Assembly (NCBI RefSeq): GCF_013402815.2
Contig: NZ_CP058601.1
Coordinates: forward strand, 682,001-746,000
Length of the DNA: 64,000 bases
DNA from: Natrinema halophilum
GTDB taxonomy: Archaea > Halobacteriota > Halobacteria > Halobacteriales > Natrialbaceae
Direction: 5' to 3'
Shown here: in pieces, positions 31,906 to 41,029 of the stretch
How the letters are laid out: the number at the start of each line of letters is the position of its first letter
Position numbering within the stretch: the first letter of the stretch is position 1
The notes under the pieces: model-generated
What the model saw: the letters and a program-made list of their open reading frames with translations, nothing else
Database searches by the model: none
What the model was told of the DNA's origin: nothing
Made by a program: the position numbers and the translations under genes

Positions 31906-33420
31906 ATGACCGACTGGACAGAGAAGTACCGCCCGACGACGCTGTCGGAGGTACGCGGCAACAACAAGGCTCGCGACAAGCTCGAGGAGTGGGCCGAAAC
32001 CTGGGACGATCACCGAAAGGCGGTGATCATTCACGGCAGTCCCGGCGTCGGGAAGACATCCGCCGCCCACGCGCTGGCCGCCGACATGGGGTGGCCCGTG
32101 ATGGAACTCAACGCCAGCGACAACCGTCAGGCGGATGTCATCGAACGGATCGCTGGTGAGGCGGCCAAGAGCGGCACGCTAACCGGGGGCGGGTCGGGCC
32201 GTCGACTCGTCATCTTAGACGAGGCGGACAACTTCCACGGAAATGCGGATTACGGCGGCTCGAAGGAGGTCACCCGCGTCGTCAAGGAGGCGAATCAGCC
32301 GGTCGTTCTGGTCGCGAACGAATTCTACGACATGAGCCAGTCGCTTCGAAACTCCTGTGAGACCATCGAATTCCGGGACGTTTCGAAGCGATCGATCGTC
32401 CCTGTCCTTCGGGACATCTGCCGGCGCGAAGACGTCGAGTTCGACGAAGAAGCCCTGGAGAAAATCGCCGAGTCGACCAGTGGCGATCTCCGTTCGGCGG
32501 TCAACGACCTGCAGGCGGTCGCCGAGGAGGCGGAACGGCTGACCGTCGACGACGTCGTGACGGGCGAACGCGATACGACCGAGGGGATATTCGATTTCCT
32601 CGACTCGCTCATCAAGGAAGAAGACGCCGAAGGGGCGCTGCGGGCATCCTACGACGTCGACGAGACGCCGGATGAATTGCTAAACTGGATCGAGGACAAC
32701 CTCCCGAAAGACTACGAGGGCGCTGAACTGGCCGACGCATACGAGTTCCTTTCGAACGCTGATCGATGGCTCGGCCGCGTCCGGGCCACGCAGGAGTACT
32801 CGTACTGGCGCTACGCGACGGACAATATGACCGCCGGCGTCGCTGCCTCGAGACGCGGCGACAAGGGTGGCTGGACACGGTACGGACCGCCGAGTTACTG
32901 GTCGAAGCTCGGCCGGACCAAAGGGACCCGCAATACCCGGGATGCGATCGCCGAACGTATCGCCGAACGTGAGGGTGCAAGCGTCGCAACGGTTCGACGA
33001 GGAGTACTCCCGTTTCTGTCGAAGATGACCCACCACTGCAAGAACCGCGACCTTACCGTTCGCATGGCTGCAGCTTACGACCTCGACGAATCAGAGGTGT
33101 CGTTCGTCACCGGTAGCGGAAAGGACACCAACAAGGTACAGTCGATCGTCGAGGACGCCAAGGAGCGGATGGCCCAGGAAGCGGTCGATCACTCCGGCGG
33201 CGCCTTCTTCGAAGCCGAGCGCTCGAGTTCTGACGCTGAGGAAGTGACCGTAGATTCGACCGGAAGTGCCAGCGATAGTAGCGAGGGCGACGACGCCCCG
33301 AGCGAACAGGGCACGCTCGCGGCCGTCGATGAAGACAACGGGAACACTGCGGACGAAGCGGCCGACAGAGGCGCCGACGATCCGGATGATGATCAGTCGG
33401 GGCTAAGCGATTTTATGTAA
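31906..33420 (+). CDS. rfcL: Replication factor C large subunit
   Basis: 504 aa clamp-loader subunit that, with RFC small subunits, opens PCNA and loads it on primed DNA. Walker A GSPGVGKT (44-51), Walker B LVILDEAD (101-108), sensor-1 VVLVANEFYDMSQSLRNSCE and sensor-2 SGDLRSAVNDL (about 185-195) are intact. The acidic C-terminal tail (about 435-504) ends QSGLSDFM, a fitting PCNA-interacting PIP box (Q-x-x-L-x-x-F). It is a single gene preceded by 207 bases of non-coding sequence. Confidence 0.96.
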   Translation: MTDWTEKYRPTTLSEVRGNNKARDKLEEWAETWDDHRKAVIIHGSPGVGKTSAAHALAADMGWPVMELNASDNRQADVIERIAGEAAKSGTLTGGGSGRRLVILDEADNFHGNADYGGSKEVTRVVKEANQPVVLVANEFYDMSQSLRNSCETIEFRDVSKRSIVPVLRDICRREDVEFDEEALEKIAESTSGDLRSAVNDLQAVAEEAERLTVDDVVTGERDTTEGIFDFLDSLIKEEDAEGALRASYDVDETPDELLNWIEDNLPKDYEGAELADAYEFLSNADRWLGRVRATQEYSYWRYATDNMTAGVAASRRGDKGGWTRYGPPSYWSKLGRTKGTRNTRDAIAERIAEREGASVATVRRGVLPFLSKMTHHCKNRDLTVRMAAAYDLDESEVSFVTGSGKDTNKVQSIVEDAKERMAQEAVDHSGGAFFEAERSSSDAEEVTVDSTGSASDSSEGDDAPSEQGTLAAVDEDNGNTADEAADRGADDPDDDQSGLSDFM

Positions 33421-33781: not shown

Positions 33782-34474
33782 TTAGACGTCTTTTACCGGT
33801 AGTCGGTCGCGAAACGCCGCCGACAACGCGTCACCGATACCGATGGCGAGGTCGCGTGGCCCAGCACTGGCTTCGTCGGCCAGCAACGGTACCGTCTCGA
33901 CTGGGTGGCCCGTCATCCGCTCGAGTTCGGCCGGATTGGTCCGCTCGGCCACGGTTTCGCCGGCGTACTCGTTACAGATAACGCCGAAAACGTCGATACC
34001 GCGTGCCTCGAGCGCATCGATAGAGAGCGCAGTGTGATTGAGCGTACCCAATCCTGAACGCGTAACGACGACCGCGGTGGCTGCGAGATCGTCGACGAGG
34101 TCGATCACTTCGTGATCGCCGGCCAGCGGGACCCTGAGACCGCCGATACCTTCGACGATCGGCACCGTCGCGGCCGCGATTTCACGCTCGCATGCCGTAC
34201 GGATCGACTCGTACTCGATGTCTTCCGCAGCGACTTCGGCGGCGACACGCGGGGCCAGCGCCGGTTCGAGGTACTGGGGACAGGTCGCTGCTGACGGATC
34301 GGCGCAGGCTGTGGCAACGAACGCTGCGTCGTCGTCCGGCGGGTGACCGGTCTGTGCTGGTTTGATCGCCCGCGCATCGTGGCCGGCTTCGCGCAGAAGA
34401 CGCGTCAGTCCAGCCGTTATGACTGTTTTTCCGACGCCCGTTCCGGTGCCGACGACCGCGATCGGGTCAGTCAC
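33782..34474 (-). CDS. bioD: Dethiobiotin synthetase
   Basis: 230 aa. ATP-dependent ureido-ring closure of 7,8-diaminopelargonate to dethiobiotin. P-loop GTGTGVGKT (9-17), substrate lysine in AIKPAQTG (about 38-42) and VEGIGGLRVPL (about 108-118) match BioD. It is the last gene of bioB-bioU-bioF-bioD. Its start overlaps the bioF stop (34471-34474). Confidence 0.95.
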   Translation of the reverse strand: MTDPIAVVGTGTGVGKTVITAGLTRLLREAGHDARAIKPAQTGHPPDDDAAFVATACADPSAATCPQYLEPALAPRVAAEVAAEDIEYESIRTACEREIAAATVPIVEGIGGLRVPLAGDHEVIDLVDDLAATAVVVTRSGLGTLNHTALSIDALEARGIDVFGVICNEYAGETVAERTNPAELERMTGHPVETVPLLADEASAGPRDLAIGIGDALSAAFRDRLPVKDV

Positions 34475-35814
34475 AGCAGCCCTACCTCCTCACCCGCGGC
34501 ACGGAACGCCTCGAGGCAGGTGACGATATCACCCTGATCGTGAGTTGCCATCGGTACGACGCGAATTCTGCTGGTTCCATCGGGAACGGTCGGTGGGCGG
34601 ATCGCAGGTGCAACGATGTCCCGTTCACGGATTCCGTCGGCGAAAGCGATTGCGTCGCGCCGATCGCCGATGAGAACGGGGAGGATCTGGGAGTCCCCCC
34701 AGATTTCGAATCCCATCGACTCGAGTCCGTCACGGAGGTGTGCAACGTTATCCCAGAGTCGCTCCCGGGCATCACTGTGACGGGCGACGTGCAGCGCCTC
34801 GCTCGCTACTGCGGCAGCCGGTGGTGAGAGCCCGGTCGAATAGACGAACGAACGTGCCTCGTTGAGTACGCATTCGATCAGTTCCGCGCTGCCGGCGATG
34901 TATCCACCCTGGCTCGCCAGCGCTTTCGAGAGCGTTCCCAGCTGGATCTGAATGCGGTCTTCGAGCCCCTCGGCCTGGACGATGCCACCGCCGTTCGCGT
35001 AGAGGCCCGTCGCATGCGCCTCGTCGACCATCACCCACGCCCCGAACTCTTCGGCAGCGTCACAGATCGCGTCGAGTGGCGCCACAGTGCCGTCCATGCT
35101 GAAAACGGAGTCGGTGACGATCAACCAGGATTCGTCGGCTGGCTCCCGCCCCTCTCGAGTTGCTCGTTCGGCTCGTTGCTCGAGCTTCGTTCGCAGGCTC
35201 GCCACATCGCAGTGGTCGTAAACGACGGTATTGGAGCCTGCCAGCTGACAGCCATCGATGATGCTCGCGTGGTTTAACTCGTCGGAAAAGATCACGTCCG
35301 GTTCGAGTGCGGTAATCGTTCCGACGTTTGCTGCGTATCCCGACGAGAAGGTTAGCGCGCGTTCTGTGTCCTTGGTTTCGGCGAGCAGTCGCTCCAGATC
35401 CCGATGAACCAGCGTATCGCCGGTGACGAGCCGGCTAGCTCCGGCACCCGTCCCGACGGTCGCGGCGGCTTGCCGGGCCGCGTCCTGAATCCGCTGGTCG
35501 TCCGTCAGACCGAGGTAGTTGTTCGAGGCGAAAACTAGCGCCTCTGTAGCCTCGAGGACGGGTAGTTCACTGCCGGAGGGCTGCGCAAAGTAGCCGCGCT
35601 CGGCGACCCGATCGACAGGCGACAATGTACGTTTCAAATCGTTCTCCTCGAGCGTTTCGAGTCTGTTCTCGAGGTCGAACCCGCGGTCGGCCATTCGGGT
35701 GAACGGACTCAGCGCCATGGTTTCACTCTCACGGTTCCGATTCGACGGGAGATTCGAGTCGCTCGCGATTCGAGCCGGCTGATATGCGGCAGTATCGGGG
35801 TCATCGGTAGTCAC
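34471..35814 (-). CDS. bioF: 8-amino-7-oxononanoate synthase
   Basis: PLP enzyme condensing pimeloyl thioester with L-alanine. The longest frame is 447 aa. PLP Lys297 lies in LGTLSKALASQGG, cofactor Asp264 and His267 in VMVDEAHATG, and the glycine-rich substrate loop at SGYAANVG (158-165). Residues 1-40 are not family-like. The start could be at Met33 (35718) or Met41 (35694, MADRGFDLENRLETLEENDL), which gives the usual length of about 405 aa. It lies 30 bases after bioU and overlaps bioD, so it belongs to one operon. Confidence 0.94.
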   Translation of the reverse strand: MTTDDPDTAAYQPARIASDSNLPSNRNRESETMALSPFTRMADRGFDLENRLETLEENDLKRTLSPVDRVAERGYFAQPSGSELPVLEATEALVFASNNYLGLTDDQRIQDAARQAAATVGTGAGASRLVTGDTLVHRDLERLLAETKDTERALTFSSGYAANVGTITALEPDVIFSDELNHASIIDGCQLAGSNTVVYDHCDVASLRTKLEQRAERATREGREPADESWLIVTDSVFSMDGTVAPLDAICDAAEEFGAWVMVDEAHATGLYANGGGIVQAEGLEDRIQIQLGTLSKALASQGGYIAGSAELIECVLNEARSFVYSTGLSPPAAAVASEALHVARHSDARERLWDNVAHLRDGLESMGFEIWGDSQILPVLIGDRRDAIAFADGIRERDIVAPAIRPPTVPDGTSRIRVVPMATHDQGDIVTCLEAFRAAGEEVGLL

Positions 35815-35844
35815 GTTTTATGAAGGGACGGCTTCGCCAGGAGA

Positions 35845-36903
35845 TCAGAATCCGGGCATCAGTTCGGCGGGCCCGAAGACGCCGTACTCGCCGGCGCAGT
35901 TCCGACGCACGCCGGCTTTCAGGTAGCCCAGTGCGGGACCGTTAACGTTTGCCTCCATACTCGTCTCGTCGCCGAGTGAGAACGTATTCGTCGCCGTCTC
36001 GCCATCGAAGGTCGTTCCGGTGACACGCACTGTGGTCGTGGTGGGCTTCTCGTCGTTACGGACGTCGAGAATGCCGCCGACCGAAACGTCTTCCGCGTCG
36101 CAGACGCCGGCGCGCTCGAGGAGGACGTCGTCGGCGTGTTCCATGTCTTCGAATTCGATGACCCCGTCGTGGTCGTCGATGATGTCCTCGATTTCGGCGT
36201 CCGAGAGTTCGCGGGCGGTCTCGATGTCGTACTCGGGGAGGTGAGCGATATCCTCGCGGACGGTGCCGCGGTTATCCTCGTACCCCGACTTGAGGCCGAC
36301 ACCCCACCAGATATCGACGTCCGTAACCTCGACGAACGACTGTGCGGCAAGCGAAGCCGCCCCGGTAAGCAGGCCGGGCGTGGCACCAGCGCCGCAGATG
36401 AACGTAATCCCCGCATCATCGAACTCGTCGCTGCGATCGTCGAGCATGTCGATCACGCGGGAGCGCTTGAGGACGTCGATCAGCACCCCCGAATAGCCGC
36501 CCTCGACGAAACGGGTGGCCGTCCGCGGGATGAAATCGTGTTCGTAGTTCGGCAGTGCGAGCAAAACTGCGTCGATCCGGTCGCCGTGGTCGATCACCTC
36601 CTGGATCGGGTCGTCGCTGGGCCGGGCCTGGTTCGAGGCGACGACGCCTCTGTCTTCGCCGTGTTGTTTGACTCCGCCCTCGGCGGCTGCGGTACCGTTT
36701 CCGCCGTCCGTCGCTACTTCGTTGTCGATGTTGCCTTCCGTCGCTGCCAACAGTTCGTCGACGTCGAGGCCGTCGACATCGAACGCAACGCCGTGGCGGT
36801 CACACGCCGCGACGGGCGTCAGCGCGTCTTTGTGCTGGCTCACTTCGAGTGCTCGTCGGCCGATGCCTCCGGTTCCGAGTACCGCAAACGTGATATCGTC
36901 CAT
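35845..36903 (-). CDS. bioU: BioU-type (S)-8-amino-7-oxononanoate synthase, Rossmann oxidoreductase-like
   Basis: 352 aa with an NAD(P)-binding Rossmann start (FAVLGTGGIGRRALEVSQHK). It is often annotated as saccharopine-dehydrogenase-like oxidoreductase. It sits between bioB and bioF where bioA would be expected, and no bioA is in the operon. That is the position of BioU, a suicide enzyme known from cyanobacteria and found in haloarchaea, which donates the amino group from its own lysine to make diaminopelargonate. Lys146 in GVLIDVLKRSRV is my candidate sacrificial lysine (inference). Residues about 60-90 are a low-complexity haloarchaeal insertion. GAGATPGLLTGAASLAAQSF near residue 170 is the family block. 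Confidence 0.82.
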   Translation of the reverse strand: MDDITFAVLGTGGIGRRALEVSQHKDALTPVAACDRHGVAFDVDGLDVDELLAATEGNIDNEVATDGGNGTAAAEGGVKQHGEDRGVVASNQARPSDDPIQEVIDHGDRIDAVLLALPNYEHDFIPRTATRFVEGGYSGVLIDVLKRSRVIDMLDDRSDEFDDAGITFICGAGATPGLLTGAASLAAQSFVEVTDVDIWWGVGLKSGYEDNRGTVREDIAHLPEYDIETARELSDAEIEDIIDDHDGVIEFEDMEHADDVLLERAGVCDAEDVSVGGILDVRNDEKPTTTTVRVTGTTFDGETATNTFSLGDETSMEANVNGPALGYLKAGVRRNCAGEYGVFGPAELMPGF

Positions 36904-36939
36904 GTGTATCGTTCTGGGTTCGCTGCAGGTCGTTAGTCG

Positions 36940-38046
36940 TCAGTCGTCGCTCAGTTCCGTGCCTGTATTCGCAGTCGTCTCGGCCGAGGACTCCGCGGCC
37001 CCGCTGTGACGGGCCTTGACCGCTTCCGGGTCGAAGTCGTTGGTCTCTCGGTTGGGCTCGAGACCCGCGCGCTCGATGATTTCGATGTCTTCGCCGGGCG
37101 ATTGTCCCTCGGTCGTGAGGTAGTCGCCGGTGAGGATGCCGTCCGCGCCGGCTTCTAAGGGAAGGTGCTGCTCGTCGGGCGAGAGGTTGACTTCGCGGCC
37201 GCCGGTGAGCCGAACGCGCGATTCCGGGTGGAGCAACTTGTAGACTGCGACCGTTTTGACGATCTCTTCGGTCGTGATGTCGACGCTCCGTTCGGCTAAC
37301 GGCGTCCCTGAGACCGGATTGAGCACGTTCACCGGCAGCGACGAAATGCCGATGTCTTGCAGCGCGATGGCCGCTTCGACCCGGTCGGTCGGCGTCTCGC
37401 CCATCCCGAGAATGACGCCGGCACAGAGGTCCATTCCCGCCTCTTTGGCGACCTCGAGCGTCTTCACTCGGTCTTCGAAGCTGTGGGACCCGACGATCTC
37501 GGGGAAGTACCGCGGGGATGTCTCGATGTTGTGATTGTAGTGATTGATTCCCTCCTCGGCGAGGATCGCGGCTTCCTCTTCTGTGAGAATCCCCAGCGAG
37601 GCGTCGACCTCGAGATCGCACTCGTCTCGGACGAGTCGGATCGACTCGAGTACCTCCTCCCACTCCTCCGAGCGGTGTTCCTTCGAGACGCCTTTCTCGG
37701 CGACGACGATTCCGAACCGCTGGGCGCCGTCGCGTTCGGCTCGCTTCGCGGCCTCGAGGATCTTCCCTGGACCGAGAAACCCGTACGTGTCGATACCGGT
37801 ATCGAAGTGGACCGATTGCGCACAGAAACCACAGTCCTCGGCGCAATTACCCGCCTTCGCGTTGACGATCGAGCAGGCGTCGACCGTACCGTCACCGAAG
37901 TGATCGCGCACGAATGCGCCGGCTTCCGAGAGCTCGGCGGTCGGCTGGGCCAGTAACGCCAACCCGTCGGTCCGGTCGAGACGGTCCCCGGCCAGTACCC
38001 GCTCGAGTGCGTTGTCGATCGTCTCGTTTCCAGTCTCGTAAACCAC
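36940..38046 (-). CDS. bioB: Biotin synthase
   Basis: 368 aa radical-SAM enzyme that inserts sulfur into dethiobiotin. The [4Fe-4S] cysteines are Cys68, Cys72 and Cys75 in NCAEDCGFCAQS. The family blocks VVAEKGVSKEHR, GINHYNHNIETSPRYFPEIV, GVILGMGETPTDRVEAAIAL and RLTGGREVNL are present. The GTG start at 38046 is preceded by a TATA box (38071-38080), placing the transcript start next to the GTG. The operator at 38035-38068 covers this start. The C-terminal 30 residues are an acidic tail. First gene of the bioB-U-F-D operon. Confidence 0.95.
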   Translation of the reverse strand: MVYETGNETIDNALERVLAGDRLDRTDGLALLAQPTAELSEAGAFVRDHFGDGTVDACSIVNAKAGNCAEDCGFCAQSVHFDTGIDTYGFLGPGKILEAAKRAERDGAQRFGIVVAEKGVSKEHRSEEWEEVLESIRLVRDECDLEVDASLGILTEEEAAILAEEGINHYNHNIETSPRYFPEIVGSHSFEDRVKTLEVAKEAGMDLCAGVILGMGETPTDRVEAAIALQDIGISSLPVNVLNPVSGTPLAERSVDITTEEIVKTVAVYKLLHPESRVRLTGGREVNLSPDEQHLPLEAGADGILTGDYLTTEGQSPGEDIEIIERAGLEPNRETNDFDPEAVKARHSGAAESSAETTANTGTELSDD

Positions 38047-38235: not shown

Positions 38236-39150
38236 ATGGTATCAAACGGTATGGTTCTGAGCATCCCGGAGGAACGGTTTGAGGACGTGCCGGATTTCGA
38301 CTACGAGCCACAGTACGTCGACGTCGGTGAGTTGCGCATGGCGTACGTGGAAGCCGGCGGCGCCGATGGCGACGGTGACGAGGAGACGTTCCTCTGTCTC
38401 CACGGCGAACCCACCTGGTCGTTCCTCTACCGGAAGATGATGCCCACCCTGGCCGAGCGCGGTCGCGTGATCGTCCCCGATCTCATCGGGTGTGGCCGCT
38501 CCGACAGGTACGAGGATCGCGACGAGTACACGGTGGAAATGCACTACGACGCGCTGCGAACGTTCGTCGAGGAACTCGATCTACAGAATATCACGGTCGT
38601 CTGCCAGGATTGGGGCGGGTTGCTCGGACTCGCACTCGCGGCCAACCAACCGGAACGGTTCGCGCGTCTCGTACCGATGAACACCGGTCTCCCCGACGGA
38701 ACGCAGGAGATGACCGAGACCTGGCACGCGTTCGCGGAGATGGTCGCAACGGCCGAAGAACTGGACATCGGGGAACTGGTCGCGAACGGATGTTATCATG
38801 ACCTCCCTGCGAACGTGGTCGAGGCCTACCGCGCTCCGTTCCCCGACGAACGGTACATGGCGGGGGCCCGGACGTTCCCGGGGCTCGTCCCGCAGTCGCC
38901 GGACGATCCGGGAGCCGACCTGTTCGCCGACGCCCAGGAACGACTCGCCGAGTGGGAGAAACCGGCGTTCGTCCTGTTCGCGATGGAGGACCCGATTACG
39001 TCCGACAACCGCGATCCCCTCCGGAACCTCATCCCGACCGCGAGCGAACAACCCGACGTCTGGATCGACGACGCCTCGCACTTCCTGCAGGAAGATGCCG
39101 GTGAGGAAATCGCAGCGCGGATCGTAGATTTCGTCGACCGAACGTCGTGA
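38236..39150 (+). CDS. Haloalkane-dehalogenase-like alpha/beta hydrolase
   Basis: 304 aa. Nucleophile Asp125 in CQDWGGLLG, oxyanion HGEPTW (56-61, Trp61), halide-stabilising Trp126, acid Asp252 in AMEDPITSD and His282 in DDASHFLQED form the complete haloalkane-dehalogenase set (subfamily I-like, with acid after strand 7). The cap region spans about residues 150-230. Such enzymes hydrolyse carbon-halogen bonds to alcohols. The physiological substrate in a halophile is unknown, and natural brominated or chlorinated compounds are possible. Start MVSNGMVLSIPEERF at 38236 is the first ATG. It shares its upstream region with the divergent biotin operon. Confidence 0.85.
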   Translation: MVSNGMVLSIPEERFEDVPDFDYEPQYVDVGELRMAYVEAGGADGDGDEETFLCLHGEPTWSFLYRKMMPTLAERGRVIVPDLIGCGRSDRYEDRDEYTVEMHYDALRTFVEELDLQNITVVCQDWGGLLGLALAANQPERFARLVPMNTGLPDGTQEMTETWHAFAEMVATAEELDIGELVANGCYHDLPANVVEAYRAPFPDERYMAGARTFPGLVPQSPDDPGADLFADAQERLAEWEKPAFVLFAMEDPITSDNRDPLRNLIPTASEQPDVWIDDASHFLQEDAGEEIAARIVDFVDRTS

Positions 39151-39778: not shown

Positions 39779-41029
39779 TCACCGGGGCGTCTCTGCTCCC
39801 CACGTCTCGAGTGCTGTCGCCAGTTCCGGGTGATCGGTAGCGTAGTCCGCAAGCGCTTCGCCGGCCATCGCCGCTTCGACGGATTGACGGAGCGCTTTCG
39901 CACCTGCGAGCGTCCCATCGGGATGGCCGTGGACACCGCCGCCGGCCTGAACGATAATATCCGTTCCCAGAGCGTCGATGAGTTGATCGATGACGCCGGG
40001 GTGAAGTCCCCCCGAGGCGACGGGAAGGACCGGGTTCAGGCCGTAGCACTCCCCCGTGAGCCACGCGTTGATCCCCGGCGTGTCCTCGTTCTCGAGTTTT
40101 CCCAGCCCCGCCGTCCCGGTGTGAATGTGATCGACGCCACAGAGGCGGGCGACCTGGGCAATGACGCGCATCGAAACGCCGTGGTGGTCCAGTCGATCGA
40201 AGGCTGCGTGCATCGCGCGGTGAGCGTGGATGGCCAGTCCGTGATCCTCACAACGGTCCCGGACGCTCTGGACGGCGGCCCATCCGCAGGTAATAACGTC
40301 GACCATAACGAATCCGCCCCCGTGTTCGGCGACGAGGTCGATACGTTCGAGCATCTCGGTGGTCTCTGCGGTGACGTTGACGAGGTAGTCCTTTCGTTCA
40401 CCAGTATCCTCCTGGACGCGGTCGCGGGCAGCGAGGCTCTCTGTCAGTCGATCGACGAAGGGATTGAAGGCCTGATCCGTGAGGTTCTCGTCGTCCTTCA
40501 GGAGATCGATCCCGCCGCGCCAGGCTGCTTCGCCGATGCTGGCGTGAGCGTCGGTCGACAGCCCTACTTTCGGCTTTGGCACCGTCGCCAGCACCGGTCG
40601 ATCCTCCGCATCCAGCTTCTCTCCGGCGACGCTGGTTCCGAACTGCGGCCCTGGAAACCCGCCGACGACCGTTTCCGGCCACCGACAGTCCTCGAGTCGA
40701 ATCGAGTCAACGGCTTTCATCCCCAAGATGTTCCCCGCGATACACGAGAGAATCTGTGGCATGCTGCCTGCCTCGAATAACTCGGGGGGATAGGCGACGA
40801 GGACGTCACTCCCGTCGATGTCGCAGGCGACCGCTCCGAGGTCCGTCAACTCGCTCTCGTCGACGTGGAGCGCAGCCCAGGTTCCGTTCGACGACTCCGA
40901 CGCGACCCGACTCGCTGCCGCTTCCATCGTCATATCAGCGGCCGGTTCGATGGCGAACTCACAGACGAGTTCCGTCTCTGCGGGTTGGTACTCGAGGTCC
41001 AGAAAATCGTCGTACTCGATCCCGGTCAT
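39779..41029 (-). CDS. rbcL: Form III ribulose-bisphosphate carboxylase (archaeal RuBisCO)
   Basis: 416 aa. Catalytic Lys152 in VPKPKVGL, the activation motif GGIDLLKDDENL with carbamylated Lys178 and metal ligands Asp180/Glu181, HAHRAMHAAF, HTGTAGLGKLE and ASGGLHPG are intact. Form III enzymes use ribulose-1,5-bisphosphate produced from AMP or nucleosides (AMP pathway), feeding carbon to 3-phosphoglycerate rather than running a Calvin cycle. The other pathway genes (AMP phosphorylase, R15P isomerase) are not in this window. Start MTGIEYDDFLDLEYQPAETE at 41029. Confidence 0.94.
   Translation of the reverse strand: MTGIEYDDFLDLEYQPAETELVCEFAIEPAADMTMEAAASRVASESSNGTWAALHVDESELTDLGAVACDIDGSDVLVAYPPELFEAGSMPQILSCIAGNILGMKAVDSIRLEDCRWPETVVGGFPGPQFGTSVAGEKLDAEDRPVLATVPKPKVGLSTDAHASIGEAAWRGGIDLLKDDENLTDQAFNPFVDRLTESLAARDRVQEDTGERKDYLVNVTAETTEMLERIDLVAEHGGGFVMVDVITCGWAAVQSVRDRCEDHGLAIHAHRAMHAAFDRLDHHGVSMRVIAQVARLCGVDHIHTGTAGLGKLENEDTPGINAWLTGECYGLNPVLPVASGGLHPGVIDQLIDALGTDIIVQAGGGVHGHPDGTLAGAKALRQSVEAAMAGEALADYATDHPELATALETWGAETPR

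Follow-up and report, generated by a model that had tools for sequence, protein, structure and literature searches.

The locus described here raises the question of which enzyme carries out the conversion of 8-amino-7-oxononanoate (AON) to diaminononanoate in a biotin operon where a Rossmann oxidoreductase-like gene occupies the place expected of bioA. A sequence-only reading had proposed that this gene encodes BioU and that the gene order is bioB-bioU-bioF-bioD. The window (the whole stretch of 64,000 nucleotides that was analysed) does contain four minus-strand open reading frames in this order, and each has matches to the family in question. We interpret them, with a probability of roughly 0.94, as an operon for the whole late stage of biotin synthesis, with BioU acting for BioA, from a haloarchaeon that belongs to the genus Natrinema or stands close to it. 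The genes, and the sites within bioU to which we refer below, are located at the following window positions:

36940..38046, minus strand: bioB, biotin synthase, 368 aa, GTG start, the first gene of the operon
35845..36903, minus strand: bioU, 352 aa, predicted NAD(P)H-dependent enzyme from AON to the carbamate of diaminononanoate (DAN), replacing bioA
36634..36723, minus strand: BioU residues 61-90, a variable loop specific to haloarchaea, absent in Slr0355 of Synechocystis
36466..36468, minus strand: codon of BioU Lys146, the predicted sacrificial amino donor, aligning with K124 of Slr0355
36136..36138, minus strand: codon of BioU His256, equivalent of the catalytic-site His233, aligning with H233 of Slr0355
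34471..35814, minus strand: bioF, 8-amino-7-oxononanoate synthase, 447 aa
33782..34474, minus strand: bioD, dethiobiotin synthetase, 230 aa

The product of bioB matches NCBIfam model TIGR00433 at 334 bits, above the cut-off of 225, and contains the Pfam domains Radical_SAM and BATS, while that of bioD matches TIGR00347 at 112 bits (cut-off 83). The bioF product has TIGR00858 as its top model, with 390 bits and an E of 7e-117, a little short of the cut-off of 426. Intergenic spaces measure 36 bases between bioB and bioU and 30 bases between bioU and bioF, and bioF and bioD overlap by 4 bases. The nearest named relatives belong to Natrinema, Haloterrigena and Halopiger, at ~91-92% protein identity. 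Near the operon lie genes for a type III Rubisco (window 39779-41029), a haloalkane dehalogenase-like hydrolase divergent from bioB (38236-39150) and the replication factor C large subunit (31906-33420), the last of these being the most frequent operon neighbour in a conserved-neighbour scan. An Rfam scan of a single relative locus returned no match.

A phmmer comparison of the bioU product with solved structures returned Synechocystis BioU as the best match (E 4e-85, residues 6-54 and 87-352), and the five entries for that protein (6ir4, 6k36, 6itd, 6k37 and 6k38) are its best solved relatives, at E about 1e-84. The structure of the protein was then predicted from 24 aligned relatives, one plasmid-record row being omitted, and the resulting model (mean pLDDT 84.7) superposes 321-322 residues on the five BioU entries with Z scores of 43-45 and an rmsd of 1.4-1.5 Å. 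The next structural matches, namely carboxyspermidine dehydrogenase, lysine dehydrogenase and amine dehydrogenases, all score below Z 20. The gene in the place of bioA is thus BioU, as had been proposed, both by sequence and by a Z of 44 for the model on BioU. Its sole NCBIfam match is NF047886 (347 bits, E 1e-103), whose curated cut-off of 600 bits is reached neither by this protein nor by any of the tested haloarchaeal or other archaeal members, and appears to have been set for the cyanobacterial branch. Since the haloarchaeal members all fall far below it, haloarchaeal BioU has diverged from cyanobacterial BioU (about 45% identity), the latter branch being represented by the Synechocystis sequence alone.

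If BioU acts for BioA, a genuine bioA should be absent, and the sequence-only reading had called for a genome-wide search. With the bioA model TIGR00508 (cut-off 405 bits), nothing in the whole genome exceeds the cut-off; the best score is 259 bits, from a protein assigned to another type of aminotransferase. The genome encodes about six class-III aminotransferases, which could suggest that one of them performs the BioA step and that the gene at the bioU position has some other role, for example as a regulator, all the more so as NCBI labels the bioU product a 'transcriptional regulator'. We consider this very unlikely: all of these aminotransferases lie far below the bioA cut-off and score higher for ArgD/LysJ-, DAT- or GABA-type families, which rules out a bioA elsewhere in this genome, while bioU encodes a BioU of full length, with the catalytic residues retained and no match to a DNA-binding domain. 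The same label is used by NCBI for haloarchaeal BioU proteins, copies on plasmids also being named 'hypothetical protein'; BioU is therefore mislabelled in public records, an annotation that can be corrected. In the same genome, a glutamate-1-semialdehyde aminotransferase-like gene lies in two frames (C1:2678433-2679354), which suggests a frameshift or an assembly error.

The absence of bioA extends well beyond this genome. None of 391 haloarchaeal genomes holds a bioA above the cut-off, and the model does exceed it in an archaeon used as a positive control, Methanocaldococcus jannaschii. A strong bioU match occurs in 150 of the 391 genomes and bioB in 177: both genes are found in 149, bioU only in one, bioB only in 28 and neither in 213. 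Twenty bioB loci were inspected individually: 18 came from genomes in which no strong bioU lay close by, and the other two are second or separate bioB genes. Most consist of a lone bioB; three have bioB-bioF only (L203, L206 and L214, with neither bioU nor bioD nearby, pairs that may be decaying or may serve salvage), one carries a frame-broken bioU with bioF and bioD, and one retains a bioU remnant. None of the 20 combines intact bioF and bioD in the absence of bioU-derived sequence, and therefore bioF and bioD beside bioB are always accompanied by bioU sequence in this set. In this survey, BioU is the only detectable enzyme for the step from AON to diaminononanoate in haloarchaea.

The gene order is likewise widespread. 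Of 129 haloarchaeal bioU loci, 100 show it, and many of the remainder are stretches too short to span the four genes; among the 58 named haloarchaeal loci it occurs in 51. Such a recurrence is far beyond chance. Operons of Natrinema, Haloterrigena, Natronorubrum, Halorientalis, Haloferax larsenii and others share the order and residues described here at 65-93% identity; they differ in the length of the loop, and some lineages possess a second copy or have lost the adjacent bioF or bioD. Two copies of bioU per genome were observed in G230 (L101/L102) and in Halorientalis salina (L177/L181), one locus of the two being bioB-bioU only. In several haloarchaea bioU is located on megaplasmids, as seen in seven plasmid records, one of them from Haloferax larsenii. 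In Haloferax mediterranei, HFX_5078 is presumably the bioU gene, with bioF (HFX_5077) on one side and bioB (HFX_5079) on the other.

The earlier reading had singled out Lys146, in a VLKRS segment, as the candidate catalytic lysine and had suggested an alignment with the characterised cyanobacterial enzyme. In that alignment the residue (context VLIDVLKRSRV) coincides with K124 of Synechocystis BioU, the active-site lysine, which is replaced by alanine in 6itd and 6k37; the H233A variant was crystallised as 6k38. The positions of Lys146 and His256 are occupied by lysine and histidine, respectively, in all 131 aligned sequences (130 haloarchaeal plus Synechocystis). A motif check retrieved the lysine in 57 of the 58 named haloarchaeal loci, the remaining locus being frame-broken shortly after the motif. 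The lysine is also invariant in a second archaeal class (16 genomes) wherever the sequence covers the site. Motifs such as DIGTRT and DIGIRT, which gave the impression of archaeal BioUs devoid of the lysine, derive from another stretch further upstream, and alignment places a lysine at the true site in all of these proteins.

In Synechocystis BioU, AON is reduced covalently onto the lysine, CO2 is taken up and the diaminononanoate carbamate is released oxidatively, with loss of the lysine amine (PMC12915131, PMC7133116). By analogy, we infer a comparable sequence for the haloarchaeal protein. BioF would make AON, and BioU, a Rossmann-fold dehydrogenase, would join AON to the Lys146 side-chain amine as an imine and then reduce this imine with NAD(P)H. 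The AON-lysine conjugate would take up CO2, and NAD(P)+-dependent oxidation would free the carbamate of 7,8-diaminononanoate. Lys146 would thereby give up its amino group, allowing one reaction per BioU molecule, and BioD followed by BioB would perform ring closure and sulphur insertion. BioU ranks among the few enzymes that are believed to be consumed by their own metabolic reaction.

The loop at residues 61-90 distinguishes haloarchaeal BioU from the Synechocystis enzyme. The sequence-only reading had noted a low-complexity insertion here, to be compared with other BioUs; it is present, has a high content of Gly, Ala and Asp, and is predicted to be disordered at residues 61-83 (pLDDT <50), and it is missing from the BioU of both Synechocystis and the other archaeal class. 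Among the 130 haloarchaeal sequences its length varies from 8 to 82 residues (median 33), with 8-11 residues in three deep sequences and 20-82 in the others. Conservation amounts to 61% in the loop versus 86% in the remaining protein, with the patches TDGG, VKQ-GE and GV-AS-Q being kept. Being disordered, length-variable and specific to haloarchaea, the loop is probably not catalytic, and we regard it as a salt-lineage elaboration outside the catalytic core.

The divergence of the haloarchaeal branch and this lineage-specific loop with its conserved patches could nevertheless be taken to indicate that haloarchaeal BioU is a true catalyst, drawing its amine from outside (free lysine, for example) or being repaired rather than undergoing a single turnover. 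We see little chance of this: every sequence examined has the lysine, no variant lacking it was encountered among them, and the loop, disordered in the model, can shrink to 8 residues. Equally improbable is a mechanism differing from the cyanobacterial one in that the loop patches aid regeneration, partner docking or CO2 handling, such that the enzyme would not be strictly single-turnover.

The supply of pimelate to this operon is a separate matter. No bioW was found in this genome, no bioC match exceeds the cut-off, and the scan revealed no pimelate gene among the conserved operon neighbours; as none of the known pimeloyl-CoA sources was detected, the de novo pathway as a whole is putative. 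Operons of the type bioB-bioW-bioU-bioF-bioD occur in another class of this phylum, outside the haloarchaea (for example G665, L230:3817-8433), BioU being present in 16 of 200 genomes; the full-length BioU proteins of that class share 53-57% identity with Synechocystis BioU versus 45-49% with the BioU of the window. Only two of 194 haloarchaea possess a bioW-like gene, and in the deep lineage G021, which is one of the two, this gene sits between bioB and bioU. This suggests that an ancestral operon may have carried bioW, which would have been lost in most haloarchaea. Haloarchaea that have the operon and no recognised pimeloyl-CoA gene thus present a testable gap, given the bioW between bioB and bioU in the other class and in one deep haloarchaeon.

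The step from AON to diaminononanoate is also carried out by the class-III aminotransferases BioA and BioK, PLP enzymes unrelated to BioU that employ an external amino donor and of which none exceeds its family cut-off here. A 2026 paper (PMC13336041) states that haloarchaea depart from the otherwise conserved late pathway and credits the 2020 BioU paper for this; the presence of BioU in haloarchaea is therefore already established. No biochemical work on a haloarchaeal BioU turned up in the literature searched. As far as that literature shows, what is new is how large the survey is, the NCBI mislabelling and the bioB-bioW-bioU-bioF-bioD operons of the non-haloarchaeal class. The operon in the window is an ordinary example of the known BioU type: with BioU of Synechocystis sp. 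PCC 6803 (Slr0355) its BioU shares the fold, the active-site lysine and histidine, about 45% identity and the replacement of bioA, and it differs in the extra variable, disordered loop at residues 61-90.
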